Assembly (NCBI RefSeq): GCF_001047075.2
Contig: NZ_DF968000.1
Location: 42,858-97,776 of the forward strand
Direction: 5' to 3'
DNA from: Fructobacillus ficulneus
Lineage (GTDB): Bacteria > Bacillota > Bacilli > Lactobacillales > Lactobacillaceae
DNA: 54,919 nucleotides
The notes beneath the pieces are model-generated. The model saw nothing but the letters and a program-made list of their open reading frames with translations. It had not been told where the DNA came from and ran no database searches. Positions 44,744-54,810 of the stretch are shown here, one piece after another. Both the position numbers and the translations under genes were made by a program. Every line of letters begins with the position of its first letter. Within the stretch, counting starts at the first letter, position 1.

Positions 44744-45913
44744 ATGAAAAATAAGATTAGAATGTACGACACAACATTACGTGATGGTGAACAAACAATC
44801 GGTGCGAACTTCTCGGTTGCTGAAAAAGTTCAAATTGCTCAAGCCTTGGAAGATTATGGGATTGATGCGATTGAAGCCGGTTTCCCAGCCGCTTCTGAAA
44901 AAGACTTTGCAGCTGTTCAAGCAATTAGCCGCCAAATTAAAAAAGCCACAGTCGTCGGCTTGGCACGAATGGTCCGCAAGGATATCGATGCCGCGGTCGA
45001 ATCGACGAAGGAAGCAGCACACCAAGCCGTCCACGTCTTTATTGCCACTTCACCGATTCATCGGGAAAGCAAGTTGAAGATGACAAAGGAAGAGGTCTTG
45101 GACAAGATTGCTGCCGATGTGGCTTACACTAAACAATACGTTGATGACATCATTTTCTCACCTGAAGATGCAACTCGAACGGAAACGGACTTCTTGATTG
45201 AAAGTGTGCAAACGGCCATCGATGCCGGTGCAACGACCATCAATATTCCCGACACCGTTGGTTACACAACCCCCGAAGAATTCGGCCAAATCTTTGATGA
45301 TTTACGCCAGGGAATTCCTCAATTTGATCAAATTTCTTGGTCAACCCATACTCATAACGACTTGGGTATGGCCAACGCTAACGCTTTGGCCGGTATCGAA
45401 CACGGTGCCAATGAAATTCAAGGAACGATTAACGGCATCGGCGAACGAGCTGGTAATGTTGATTTGATCGAAGCGGCCGTAGCAATCTACGTTCGTCATG
45501 ATAAGATTGCCCGACCTACTACCATTGATTTGAAACAATCAAAGAAAATTTCCAACCTGGTTGCCCGCCTGTCAAAGGTTGCCACAGCTGCCAATAAGCC
45601 AATTACCGGCCGCAACGCCTTTGCCCACGAATCAGGTATCCACCAAGATGGCTACTTGAAAAATCCAAATACCTACCAAATTATCGCTCCTGAAATGGTT
45701 GGAGCCCACGTATCCTTGCCACTTGGTAAGTTGTCTGGCTCACATGCCGTTCACGACAAGTTGGTTGATTTGGGTTATGAAGTTCACTCTGCTGAGATGC
45801 CAGCCATCTTTAAGGCCTTTAAGAGGGTAGCAGAAGGAACGAGCGTTGTTAGCGACAAACAAATGGAAGCAGTTGCCGATATGGTAATTAAAGAAAAGGT
45901 GGCTCAGGGTTAA
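44744..45913 (+). CDS. leuA: 2-isopropylmalate synthase lacking the regulatory domain
   Basis: Condenses 2-ketoisovalerate and acetyl-CoA, the first step to leucine. 389 residues: TIM-barrel DTTLRDGEQTIG with metal Asp, THTHNDLGMANANAL (HxH metal site), GIGERAGNVD and the subdomain with HESGIHQDGYLKN. The usual enzyme has about 510 residues; this one ends at the position where the C-terminal leucine-binding domain would start, and leuB begins on the stop codon. So it should not be inhibited by leucine in the usual way. Ribosome binding site AAAGGAGAG. Confidence 0.93.
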   Translation: MKNKIRMYDTTLRDGEQTIGANFSVAEKVQIAQALEDYGIDAIEAGFPAASEKDFAAVQAISRQIKKATVVGLARMVRKDIDAAVESTKEAAHQAVHVFIATSPIHRESKLKMTKEEVLDKIAADVAYTKQYVDDIIFSPEDATRTETDFLIESVQTAIDAGATTINIPDTVGYTTPEEFGQIFDDLRQGIPQFDQISWSTHTHNDLGMANANALAGIEHGANEIQGTINGIGERAGNVDLIEAAVAIYVRHDKIARPTTIDLKQSKKISNLVARLSKVATAANKPITGRNAFAHESGIHQDGYLKNPNTYQIIAPEMVGAHVSLPLGKLSGSHAVHDKLVDLGYEVHSAEMPAIFKAFKRVAEGTSVVSDKQMEAVADMVIKEKVAQG

Positions 45914-47013
45914 TGGAGAAGAAAAAAATTGTTGTGCTCCCAGGTGACGGAATCGGGCCAGAAATTATGACGGCCGGTTTAAAGGTCTTGGAAGCAGCTA
46001 GTAACAAATTTGATTTCAAGTATGAACTTGACTACCAACCCTTCGGTGGGGCCGGCATTGACGAAGCTGGTGACCCATTGCCAGAACAAACTGTTATTGC
46101 TGCTAAGGCGGCCGATGCCATTTTGCTCAGTGCAATTGGTGGCCCTAAATGGGATGACTGCCCTAGGCGTCCAGAAAAAGGTCTGCTAGAAATCCGTTCT
46201 GCTCTTGGCTTGTTTGCTAACATTCGACCCACGACAGTCGAAGATATTCAAATTGACCGGTCACCTTTAAAAGCCGACCGGGTCCAAGGCACAGACTTCG
46301 TGATTGTTCGCGAGTTGACCTCTGGAGCCTATTTCGGGGAACCACGGTCATTGGCTGATGACAAAGCCATCGATACTATTTTCTACAGCCGGGCTGAAAT
46401 TGAACGAATTATGAAAATTGGTTTCGATATGGCAGTTAAACGAAGTAACCACGTCACCATCGTTGACAAATCAAACGTCTTGGCCACTTCAAAATTATGG
46501 CGACAAATTGCCGAAGAAGTAGCACAATCCTATCCAACTGTAACGGTTGATTACCGCTATGTTGATGCAATGGCAATGGCCATTATTGCTGACCCAAAAC
46601 AGTTCGATGTTGTCATTACGCCCAACCTTTTCGGTGACATTTTAAGTGATGAAGCCGCTGAAATTACTGGTTCAATTGGCCAAATTCCATCGGTTTCCGC
46701 GGGAAGTGCCGGGGTAAACCTTTACGAACCAATTCACGGTTCTGCACCTGATATTGCTGGTCAGGGAATTGCTAACCCAATTTCGATGATCAAGACGGTC
46801 GCCATGATGTTAGACCAAAGCTTTGATCGATCAGACATGGCTCAAGCAATTATTACCGCAGTCAATCAAGTGATTGAAGATCAGGTCGTCACCGCCGATA
46901 TGGGTGGTGAATTTGGAACCGCAGCCGTGACGGATAAAATTATCGAATTTATAAATGGGGGAACAGCACAATGGGAACAACGCTCTTTGATAAAGTCTGG
47001 AACACACATGTAA
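45913..47013 (+). CDS. leuB: 3-isopropylmalate dehydrogenase
   Basis: Oxidises and decarboxylates 3-isopropylmalate with NAD+. 366 residues: [11 protein letters not shown], the substrate loop with [45 protein letters not shown] and [18 protein letters not shown]. It starts on the last base of leuA. The C-terminus is slightly extended, because the frame runs 43 bases into leuC. Confidence 0.95.
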
Positions 47014-48338
47014 TTACAGGTGAGATTGGAGAGCCACAACTCTTGTATGTTGATCTCCACTTAATTCACGAAGTAACATCACCACAACCCTTCGAGGGTT
47101 TGCGTGAAGCCCACCGGAAACTTCGTCGGCCGGACTTAACAATTGCAACGATGGACCACAACGTGCCGACCAAGGATATCTACAATGTTAAGGACCAGAT
47201 GTCACGGCTGCAGATGGATGCACTGGAAAAGAACTGCCGGGACTTTGATTTGCCATTGGCTTCCGTCGGGGATGACAAACAAGGAATTGTTCACGTTGTT
47301 GGTCCCGAGCGAGGGGCAACCCAACCCGCGAAAGTGATTGTCTGTGGTGATTCCCACACGGCGACCCATGGGGCCTTCGGAGCAATTGCCTTTGGAATTG
47401 GAACTTCGGAAGTTGAACACGTGATGGCGACCCAGACGATTTGGCAGGTTAAGCCGAAGACGATGGGCATTAAAATAACGGGGAAATTACCAAAGAACAC
47501 CTATTCAAAAGATATCATCATGGCCATTATTGCCAAGTATGGGGTTTCCTTTGGGACTGGTTACGCCATCGAATTCTACGGTGAGACGATTGAACAATTG
47601 TCAATGGAAGCCCGAATGACAATGTGCAATATGTGTATCGAAGCGGGTTCTAAAACTGGCATGGTTAAGCCAGACCAAACGACTTACGACTACGTTGCTG
47701 GCCGTGAAATGGCTCCCAAGGATATGGCAGCCGCCGAAGAGTATTGGTCACAATTCTATACCGATGACGAAGCCGACTTCGATGAGCGAATTGAATTTGA
47801 TGTGACTGACTTGAAGCCAATGATTACCTGGGGAACCAATCCTGGGATGGCGATGGCAGTTGATCAGAAAACACCAGCCATTCAAGATAAAAATGACCAG
47901 GCAGCTTACGACTATATTGGTTTGACACCTGGGACGAAGGCAGAAGATATTCCCTTGGATTACCTCTTCATTGGTTCGTGTACCAATTCCCGTTACGAGG
48001 ACCTAGTGGAAGCAGCCGCGATGATGAAGGGCAAACATTTGGCACCAAACATTACTGCCTGGATTGTTCCCGGTAGCCGTGAAATTCGGAACCGGGCGAT
48101 GGCGAGCGGAATTGCCAAAGTCTTTGAGGATGCTGGTTGCGAATGGCGCGAACCAGGGTGCTCAGCCTGTCTAGCTATGAACCCGGATAAGATTCCAGCA
48201 GGGAAGCACGCTGCCTCAACTTCCAACCGTAACTTTGTTGGTCGGCAGGGGGCCGGGTCACGAACACACCTGGCTTCACCAGCAATGGTGGCAGCGGCAG
48301 GAATTGCCGGTCACTTTGTTGATGTGACAGCGATGTAG
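46971..48338 (+). CDS. leuC: 3-isopropylmalate dehydratase large subunit
   Basis: Isomerises 2- to 3-isopropylmalate together with LeuD. 455 residues; 4Fe-4S ligands in [12 protein letters not shown] and [10 protein letters not shown], substrate loop [14 protein letters not shown]. The start at 46971 ([14 protein letters not shown]) is the conserved N-terminus and has GGGGGAA upstream, so the 43-base overlap with leuB is real. Confidence 0.96.
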
Positions 48339-48351
48339 GGGGAGAGAAGAG

Positions 48352-48936
48352 ATGGATGCCTTTATTCGAGAAGTAGGAACAACAGTTATTATTCCGGACA
48401 ACGATATCAATACCGATATTATCTTGCCCAAACAATTTCTAAAAAATATTTTGAAAACTGGTTTTGGTAAGTACTTGTTCTTTGATTGGCGGTACTTAGC
48501 TGATGGTCAGCCGAACCCGGACTTTATTTTAAATAAGCCCGAACATGCCGGTGCTTCAATCTTGATCACCGGAACCGGGTTTGGAAGTGGATCATCCCGG
48601 GAACATGCAGTCTGGTCCTTGAAAGACTATGGCTTTCAAGTTGTCATTGCCGGGGGCTTTTCAGATATTTTTTACATGAATGCGACTAAAAACGGCCTCT
48701 TGCCAATTGTGTTAGGAGAAGATGAACGAAAGATTTTACGACAAGCCCAAGCTGACGAAAAAGTTAGTGTTGACCTGCCAGAACAAACAGTGACTTATGG
48801 TGACCATGTCTTCCATTTTGATATCAATCCTCAATGGAAAGAAAAGTTTATCAAGGGTGAAGATGATATTGATCACACGCTTAAATTTGAGAAGCAAATC
48901 ACTGCGTTTGAACAAAAGCGACCAAGCTTTGGATAG
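48352..48936 (+). CDS. leuD: 3-isopropylmalate dehydratase small subunit
   Basis: Swivelling-domain partner of LeuC. 194 residues; [17 protein letters not shown] and [20 protein letters not shown] are the family motifs. GAGAGAAGAG precedes the ATG. An MFS gene follows 8 bases after the stop. Confidence 0.96.
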
Positions 48937-51161: not shown

Positions 51162-52184
51162 ATGACAGACGGTCACAGTTGGAAATTTGATATCACCCGG
51201 TATGGCGCCTTTATTATTTTGATTTTGGCTATGGGAACAGTATTTTTGAGTACTGGAATCCGCCAGTACCCACAATTGTTGGGGATGGCTGGAATTTCAT
51301 TTACCTTTGGCTTGCGGCACGCCTTTGACGTGGACCACATTGCGGCCATTGATAACATGACCCGTAAGATGCTTAATGATGGCAAAAATACTCGCGGAGT
51401 TGGGTTTTCCTTCTCGTTTGGTCACTCTTTGGTGGTTTTGATTTTGACAATTATGACTGTCTTGTTTGTTGAATGGGCCGACCATTCAATGCCGGTTTTT
51501 GAATCTGTTGGTGGGATTTTTGGAACGATGATTGCCGCAGTGATGCTTTTGATGTTGGCCTTCTTTAATACTTATATTTTGACGGGGATTTGGAAAAACT
51601 TCCGGAAGATGCGCCAGCAAACTATTGATCCCGACGACAAACAATTGGCCGCAGAATCAAAAATTTACCGAATTTTCATGAAGCTTTTGAACCTCATTAA
51701 CCACAACTGGCAAGTTGCCATTGTCGGCTTCTTGTTTGGTTTGGGCTTTGATACGGCAACCCAGGTAGCCGTTTTGGCAACTTCTGCCACAGCAACCTCT
51801 GCCGGTGTTCCATGGTATTCAATTTTGTCTGTACCGCTGTTCTTTACGGCCGGTATGTGTCTGATGGATACCTTAGATGGGTTCTTCATGTCAAGTACCT
51901 ATAACTGGATCATTTCAACGTCTTACCGTAAGGTGTACTTCAATTTGATTTTGACCAGTATTTCAATTATCGCGGCCGGCTTCATTGGTTTTGTGGACTT
52001 AGTTCAATCATTAACTGCTACCTTTGATTGGCATAATCCACTTAGCCAGTGGGCTGCTAGCCTGGACTTTAACGAATTGGGTATTATCTTAGTTGTTGTC
52101 TTTGTCCTAGCTTGGGCAGGTGCTTTGCTAATCTGGCGTTTGATGAATTTGGGCCAGTATGACCGCGAAGGGAAAATCGAGTAA
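51162..52184 (+). CDS. HoxN/NixA-family nickel/cobalt transporter
   Basis: 340 residues, eight membrane helices. The metal signature RHAFDVDHIAAIDN (H-x4-D-H) in helix 2, FSFGHSLVV, LGFDTATQ and GMCLMDTLDG are the four NiCoT motifs. The third usually ends in Glu, here Gln. Ribosome binding site TAGGAGACG. No nickel enzyme is visible in the window; urease or nickel-pincer lactate racemase elsewhere would explain the need. Confidence 0.93.
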   Translation: MTDGHSWKFDITRYGAFIILILAMGTVFLSTGIRQYPQLLGMAGISFTFGLRHAFDVDHIAAIDNMTRKMLNDGKNTRGVGFSFSFGHSLVVLILTIMTVLFVEWADHSMPVFESVGGIFGTMIAAVMLLMLAFFNTYILTGIWKNFRKMRQQTIDPDDKQLAAESKIYRIFMKLLNLINHNWQVAIVGFLFGLGFDTATQVAVLATSATATSAGVPWYSILSVPLFFTAGMCLMDTLDGFFMSSTYNWIISTSYRKVYFNLILTSISIIAAGFIGFVDLVQSLTATFDWHNPLSQWAASLDFNELGIILVVVFVLAWAGALLIWRLMNLGQYDREGKIE

Positions 52185-54080: not shown

Positions 54081-54120
54081 AAGCTCGTCTTGGTGCATTA
54101 GTACCGGGACGGGCTTTTTG
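54081..54120 (+). terminator. Permease gene terminator
   Basis: AAGCTCGTC pairs with GACGGGCTT (one G-U), with an inner GGT/ACC, then TTTTT. Confidence 0.8.
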
Positions 54121-54212: not shown

Positions 54213-54240
54213 TTGAATTATCAAATTGCAGTGCTAGAAT
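54213..54240 (+). promoter_or_regulatory. Promoter of the small-gene cluster
   Basis: TTGAAT, 16 bases, TAGAAT with an extended TG (TGCTAGAAT). Confidence 0.65.
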
Positions 54241-54274
54241 GAAGGTAATAAATATAGAAAAAGGGGTAATGCTT

Positions 54275-54469
54275 ATGTCAACTTTACGTGATGGATCAGA
54301 AGAGAACCGAGAATCATTCGAAAAGGCCAAGGATAAGCAGGCGCAAGACCATGCTGCTGAAGCCCACGAAGATAAAAGAGAAGACGGCCTAGAGCATGCC
54401 GAACATAAGGAAGCTCGTCATGAAAATGAAGATTTCGAAGCCGAGAAAAAGGAATTTGAGGGGGAATAA
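54275..54469 (+). CDS. Small highly charged protein, 64 aa
   Basis: ATG 54275 is eight bases after AAAGGGG. The 64-residue product starts MSTLRDGSEENRESFEKAK and consists almost only of Glu, Asp, Lys, Arg, His, Gln and Ala; it has almost no hydrophobic residues and is likely disordered or a single charged helix. I do not recognise a family. A second gene of the same kind begins two bases after the stop. A longer ORF from 54122 runs over the promoter and is rejected. Confidence 0.75.
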   Translation: MSTLRDGSEENRESFEKAKDKQAQDHAAEAHEDKREDGLEHAEHKEARHENEDFEAEKKEFEGE

Positions 54470-54471
54470 TC

Positions 54472-54612
54472 ATGGAGAAGAAGCATGAATTTGAAGCCGC
54501 AGATGCCCGCGAAGTTGAGGATGCCAAGCGCGAAGAAGAACGTCTAGCCAAGCAATCCGAATTTGAAAAGTCTTCACATGAAAGCCGGGAAAAGGCTGAC
54601 CAAGAAAAGTAG
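54472..54612 (+). CDS. Small highly charged protein, 46 aa
   Basis: ATG 54472 follows GAGGGGG and lies two bases after the previous stop. The 46 residues begin MEKKHEFEAADAREVEDAK and end ESREKADQEK, which resembles ESFEKAKDKQ in the previous protein. It is again all polar and charged, with coiled-coil potential. Probably a diverged tandem duplicate in one operon. Function unknown. Confidence 0.7.
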   Translation: MEKKHEFEAADAREVEDAKREEERLAKQSEFEKSSHESREKADQEK

Positions 54613-54687: not shown

Positions 54688-54810
54688 ATGTCAAAGCAAC
54701 CAATGCACACTAGTCACAATCAAGACATGGCAAACGACCGGACTTGGTCCATCGCCCTTGATGTTCTTGTTGAAGTTTGCCTGGTTGGTTATACAGCCTT
54801 GCTGTTTTAA
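54688..54810 (+). CDS. Small protein with C-terminal hydrophobic segment, 40 aa
   Basis: ATG 54688 lies seven bases after AAAGGGGAAG, the same kind of ribosome binding site as the two charged small genes upstream. The first 20 residues are polar (MSKQPMHTSHNQDM...), the last 20 hydrophobic (SIALDVLVEVCLVGYTALLF), suggesting a small membrane peptide. No family recognised. The 76-base gap before it has no clear terminator. Confidence 0.6.
   Translation: MSKQPMHTSHNQDMANDRTWSIALDVLVEVCLVGYTALLF

Follow-up and report, generated by a model that had tools for sequence, protein, structure and literature searches.

The window analysed here is the whole stretch of 54,919 nucleotides taken from the genome of Fructobacillus ficulneus (contig NZ_DF968000.1). 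Close to its 3' end lie two small open reading frames (ORFs), P1 and P2, both on the + strand and separated by 2 bases from the stop of the first to the start of the second (Table 1). A preliminary description had given them 64 and 46 codons and this same spacing, and the coordinates agree. It had also stated that both proteins consist almost entirely of charged and polar residues: the residues D, E, K and R make up 53% of P1 and 59% of P2, and the mean Kyte-Doolittle hydropathy is -2.00 and -1.99 respectively (by our own calculation and not by the ProtScale server). We compared this composition with 40 first-order Markov sequences, each of the size of the window, in which none of the 12,580 ORFs of at least 46 aa reached 50% D/E/K/R. 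Among the 267 ORFs of 40 to 130 aa of the window itself, P2 is the sole one with at least 50%; P1 has no entry of its own in that list because the first start of its frame leads to a 115-aa ORF at 42%.

Table 1. Features of the P1/P2 locus (positions are those of the window)
Feature	Position	Strand	Remarks
Strong terminator-like hairpin, 3' of the upstream permease-like ORF and 5' of the promoter of the pair	54081..54116	+	scan; 16 pairs, then a T-rich tail
Promoter, sigma-70-like, TTGAAT-16 nt-TAGAAT	54213..54240	+	consensus scan; TG extension 5' of the -10
Ribosome-binding site of P1, AAAGGGG	54260..54266	+	read by eye
P1	54275..54469	+	64 aa; net charge -12 (acidic)
Ribosome-binding site of P2, GAGGGGG	54458..54464	+	read by eye; within the 3' end of P1
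P2	54472..54612	+	46 aa; net charge -5; predicted single helix
Possible weak terminator hairpin 3' of P2	54619..54653	+	read by eye; imperfect GACCCCA...TGGGATC, then CTTTTATC

The extended -10 promoter and the ribosome-binding sites announced for both ORFs were found again. The promoter scan alone is weak proof, as over 1,020 bases it gave 3 promoter-like sites compared to 1.7 in shuffled sequences; the support comes from the conservation of the motif among orthologues. The extended -10 TGNTANNNT lies between -75 and -16 of P1 in 13 of the 16 orthologues (shuffled upstream sequences: mean 2.6, maximum 8), those where it is missing being G001, G351 and G088. A purine-rich ribosome-binding site precedes P1 in all 16 (counted without a shuffle control), and a purine-rich site precedes P2 in the window. 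The distance from the stop of P1 to the start of P2 is -1, 2, 5 or 21 bases across relatives. The hairpin on the 5' side of the promoter is consistent with the pair being transcribed separately from the upstream permease-like ORF. Directly after P2 the terminator scan called nothing in the window; hairpins and T runs are seen by eye 3' of P2 in several relatives. We rejected a structural RNA reading, since no Rfam family matched at the gathering threshold between 53900 and 54919.

The CAI of the pair is 0.373, compared to 0.377 (sd 0.052) predicted from its amino acids and the average usage of the window, the reference being only one frame which we take, from our own reading, to be EF-G-like and one partial, presumably EF-Tu-like, frame. 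Hence there is no sign of very high expression, a candidate property which codon use leaves unsupported.

Other ORFs of the window were observed in passing. Just 3' of the pair, at 54688-54810 (+), a 40-aa ORF is preceded by a ribosome-binding site, and the C-terminal half of its product is hydrophobic; Pfam and NCBIfam gave no match for it, and tblastn matched only the window's own loci, a comparison in which the loci used may miss its place elsewhere. Four consecutive ORFs at 44744-48936 (+) resemble, as we read them, a leuABCD leucine-synthesis operon, and the ORF at 51162-52184 is presumably that of a nickel/cobalt transporter.

Occurrence in relatives and coding status

Both P1 and P2 were found in the same 9 of the 13 genomes of the genus, next to each other and in unchanged order. 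Of 397 genomes sampled from the family, 17 gave a P1 match and 18 a P2 match; the additional P2 match (G115) was discounted, having an E value of 0.0075 and lying inside a 302-codon frame. The two occur in the same 17 genomes, and in all 17 P2 is directly downstream of P1 on the same strand. The genera bearing the pair are Fructobacillus, Convivina, the genus of Lactobacillaceae bacterium L1_55_11 (g56) and a fourth one, g18, in which 4 of the 28 genomes gave a firm P1 match and two rows (E 0.036 and 0.445) were discounted as weak. Over 395 genomes of the order, firm P2 matches came only from G000 and G088, while 5 of the 7 rows of that search (E 0.002-0.017) were discounted as weak. A collection of named species gave 10 loci (seven of Fructobacillus, two of Convivina and that of L1_55_11). 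It gave no g18 locus by name, which means that the pattern scan misses distant members. As judged from these searches, the pair is restricted to one lineage, Fructobacillus and a few related genera.

One could object that P1 and P2 are chance ORFs in an untranslated stretch, which their small size, and nothing else, would suggest. This is refuted by the ratios pN/pS, which are 0.37 for P1 (16 sequences) and 0.27 for P2 (15 sequences) compared to 1.14 and 1.34 (P1) and 0.94 and 1.59 (P2) in the frames shifted by one and two bases; all these ratios are rough, since most pairs are close to saturated at synonymous sites. The value of pN is below that of pS in every one of the 120 pairs of P1 and of the 105 pairs of P2, and codon position 3 holds 51% (P1) and 55% (P2) of the differences. 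The conservation of both frames among relatives, a charge level absent from all the control ORFs and the ribosome-binding site kept before every P1 orthologue also stand against chance, a reading to which we attach practically no weight. From the aligned sequences, P1 and P2 are under purifying selection, and it is in our opinion close to certain that they are real genes which function together. The preliminary description had argued for real genes and had named frame conservation in relatives and a bias at synonymous sites as the things to look for; both are present, together with a codon-position bias and a shared regulatory anatomy.

It had also recognized no family in the two proteins, and this holds over Pfam, NCBIfam, PHROGs, PADLOC and the sequences of the PDB, where neither has a credible match. 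With a maximal E value of 10, P1 gave only DDRGK in Pfam (E 4.6) and NF052657 in NCBIfam (E 5.4), neither of which is credible, and P2 gave zero matches in both. We found no paper on P1 or P2 in a literature search whose coverage leaves out most subscription papers, and the P2 string EFEAADAREVED, searched as text, returned 0 papers.

Location, neighbours and loss of the pair

At four named Fructobacillus loci (L033, L034, L036 and L037), as in Convivina and g56, the pair stands amid genes which we take, from our reading of their sequences, to be MFS-like, uridine-kinase-like and RpiR-like, in a slightly varying order. This common neighbourhood points to largely vertical descent there. In the window species, in F. 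pseudoficulneus (G012) and in G001 the pair is located elsewhere, and the interval from the uridine-kinase-like to the RpiR-like gene is without it. A functional link to the amino-acid permease upstream of the pair was considered and rejected, as the closest permease matches lie away from the pair in G001 and G012, the two pair-bearing relatives compared.

Neither P1 nor P2 was found in four Fructobacillus genomes, G003, G004, G009 and G010, which are 91-98% complete. All four have kept the uridine-kinase-like and RpiR-like neighbours with, by eye, nothing of the pair between them. The kinase of G009 is 97% identical to that of G007, which bears the pair, and the interval of G009 aligns with the 3' end and the terminator of the G007 pair with a score of 34, when 1,000 shuffles give at most 16; the same alignment scores 12 in G004 and 13 in G003, within chance. 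This suggests that G009 probably lost the pair by a deletion which left a scar. The deletion is probable and not certain, because the terminator also serves a convergent gene and the alignment enters the end of that gene. As its placement differs among clades and four Fructobacillus genomes are devoid of it, we regard the pair as accessory and not essential; it looks dispensable. These natural absences within Fructobacillus provide ready comparison strains.

In G088 (L064:6502-7258, - strand), the pair comes behind two small genes, whose products are a protein of 37 aa, also bearing an RDG motif, and one of 92 aa. In L065, P2 is followed by a 93-aa relative of the 92-aa protein; this relative matches DUF7348 weakly (E 0.0039, below the cut-off). 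We considered whether the 37-aa protein might point to a wider family and rejected this: among 301 genomes, it was found only in G088, apart from one weak match (E 0.05).

Neighbourhoods which change among clades, a patchy occurrence with firm matches in only part of the g18 genomes, and the absences within Fructobacillus would all suit a selfish module of two mobile genes, be it toxin-antitoxin, anti-defence or similar, as would the small size and coupling of the genes. Against such a module, no toxin, antitoxin or defence family in Pfam, NCBIfam, PHROGs or PADLOC is credibly matched by P1 or P2. Searches of viral contigs with A1, A2 or a g18 P2, of plasmids with P2 and of phages with P1 confirmed no relative, and on these results a phage, plasmid or defence origin was rejected. 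Moreover, not one of the 16 P1 and 15 P2 orthologues has a net positive charge, and the neighbourhood common to some Fructobacillus, Convivina and g56 speaks for vertical descent there. We consider the selfish module improbable.

Sequence conservation, predicted structure and possible function

The preliminary description had called P1 and P2 tandem-duplicated, and this has to be given up. BLASTP finds no alignment between them at E<=100, a profile-profile comparison (hhalign) gives a probability of 0.4%, and their best ungapped identity over 20 residues is 6, below the mean of 7.5 of shuffled sequences. The element ES-x-EKA, presented as shared, is indeed in both proteins of the window. It is found in only 4 of the 16 P1 and 4 of the 15 P2 orthologues, and a 6-mer is shared as closely in 182 of 600 shuffled P1/P2 pairs; hence the element is at the level of chance for such compositions.

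Each protein has its own conserved features. P1 carries the motif RDGxxENRxSF near its N-terminus and KDARYDNExFExEKKxxEG at its C-terminus (a consensus of the relatives, from which the P1 of the window differs at a few places), and the linker between these conserved ends varies in sequence and in length. Three of the four g18 sequences have worn motifs, in which RDG, R12 and the final EG are kept. In P2, 14 positions are invariant across the 15 sequences, which come from four genera; its conservation follows a helix-like period (peak at 90 degrees, permutation p 0.012), and its AlphaFold2 model is one helix over residues 3-45 (mean pLDDT 79). The model of P1 is a single long helix (4-61) of low confidence (mean pLDDT 60), and no helical period of conservation was found in P1 over 13 rows (p 0.70). 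The hydrophobic moment is not significant in either protein (p 0.20 and 0.51). Pairs of opposite charges at i,i+3 or i,i+4 number 19 in P2 compared to a shuffled mean of 14.5, a count reached in 164 of 2000 shuffles, and 14 in P1 compared to 15.1.

Such proteins could be protectants in the manner of hydrophilins or LEA proteins, that is, disordered proteins which shield others in drying, acid or high-sugar stress by their composition and not by specific binding. All the orthologues have 44-59% D/E/K/R and are devoid of Cys and Pro, Trp is rare (3 of 16 P1, 0 of 15 P2), and the Uversky line of charge versus hydropathy puts all 16 P1 and 15 P2 sequences on its disordered side. The habitat would fit too, Fructobacillus being fructophilic and coming from sugar-rich places. 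The preliminary description had compared P1 and P2 to hydrophilins by composition, and this comparison stands for hydrophilicity only: the index, which is above 1.0 in hydrophilins, is about 2 for both proteins (Kyte-Doolittle with the sign turned). It fails for glycine, which is above 6% in hydrophilins as quoted in PMC7448490; it amounts to 4.7% in P1 and 0% in P2 and exceeds that limit in 1 of the 16 P1 and none of the 15 P2 orthologues. No curated LEA or KGG stress-protein model of Pfam or NCBIfam matches P1 or P2, and the promoter of the pair looks housekeeping-type. The sequence is conserved beyond its composition, and protection by composition does not need a constant pairing of two different proteins. 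We hold the protectant reading to be rather unlikely.

The conserved order of residues and the constant pairing of two different proteins lead us to infer that specific binding is favoured over protection by composition, and we favour an adaptor reading over a purely compositional stress protectant. P1 and P2 would be two unrelated small proteins expressed from one two-gene operon and produced together in order to act together. For P2 we picture a charged peptide, helical for the most part, whose polar face is conserved; P1 would be a flexible protein with a short conserved recognition motif at each end; together they would most likely form a small acidic accessory complex docking on a specific cytoplasmic partner. 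This putative two-protein adaptor with a specific partner is a tentative proposal, whose chances we place a little below even. We count against it the low-confidence helix of P1 and its conservation without period, the hydrophobic moments, the spacing of charge pairs in P2 and the average codon use. A further proposal, in our eyes doubtful, is that of a new small complex, regulatory or adaptor, which would be specific to Fructobacillus, Convivina and their near relatives and in which both P1 and P2 would be obligate; its helical proteins, polar almost throughout, would use charged faces that are conserved to recognise a defined machine of the cell. Small charged proteins are often written off, either as ORFs arisen by chance or as hydrophilic filler in which one protein could replace another. 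P1 and P2 are conserved at the level of residues and stay paired in four genera, so that they lend themselves well to the question of whether specific binding is how such proteins act.

Comparison with known systems

Like small two-gene toxin-antitoxin operons, P1 and P2 are short, coupled, patchy and of changing location; they differ from them by having no basic partner and no match to a toxin, antitoxin or defence family. With hydrophilins and LEA-like proteins, such as GsiB and YciG, they share a very hydrophilic and highly charged composition, the lack of Cys and Pro and a disorder predicted by charge and hydropathy. They differ from these by glycine below 6%, the absence of a credible Pfam match, a conserved order of residues and the pairing of two proteins. 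Finally, P2 is charged, poor in glycine and predicted as one helix, as are the charged single alpha-helices (SAH) of the ER/K type. However, the spacing expected of salt bridges is not significantly enriched in P2, which is acidic and only 46 aa long, and its conserved positions include Phe, His and Ser.
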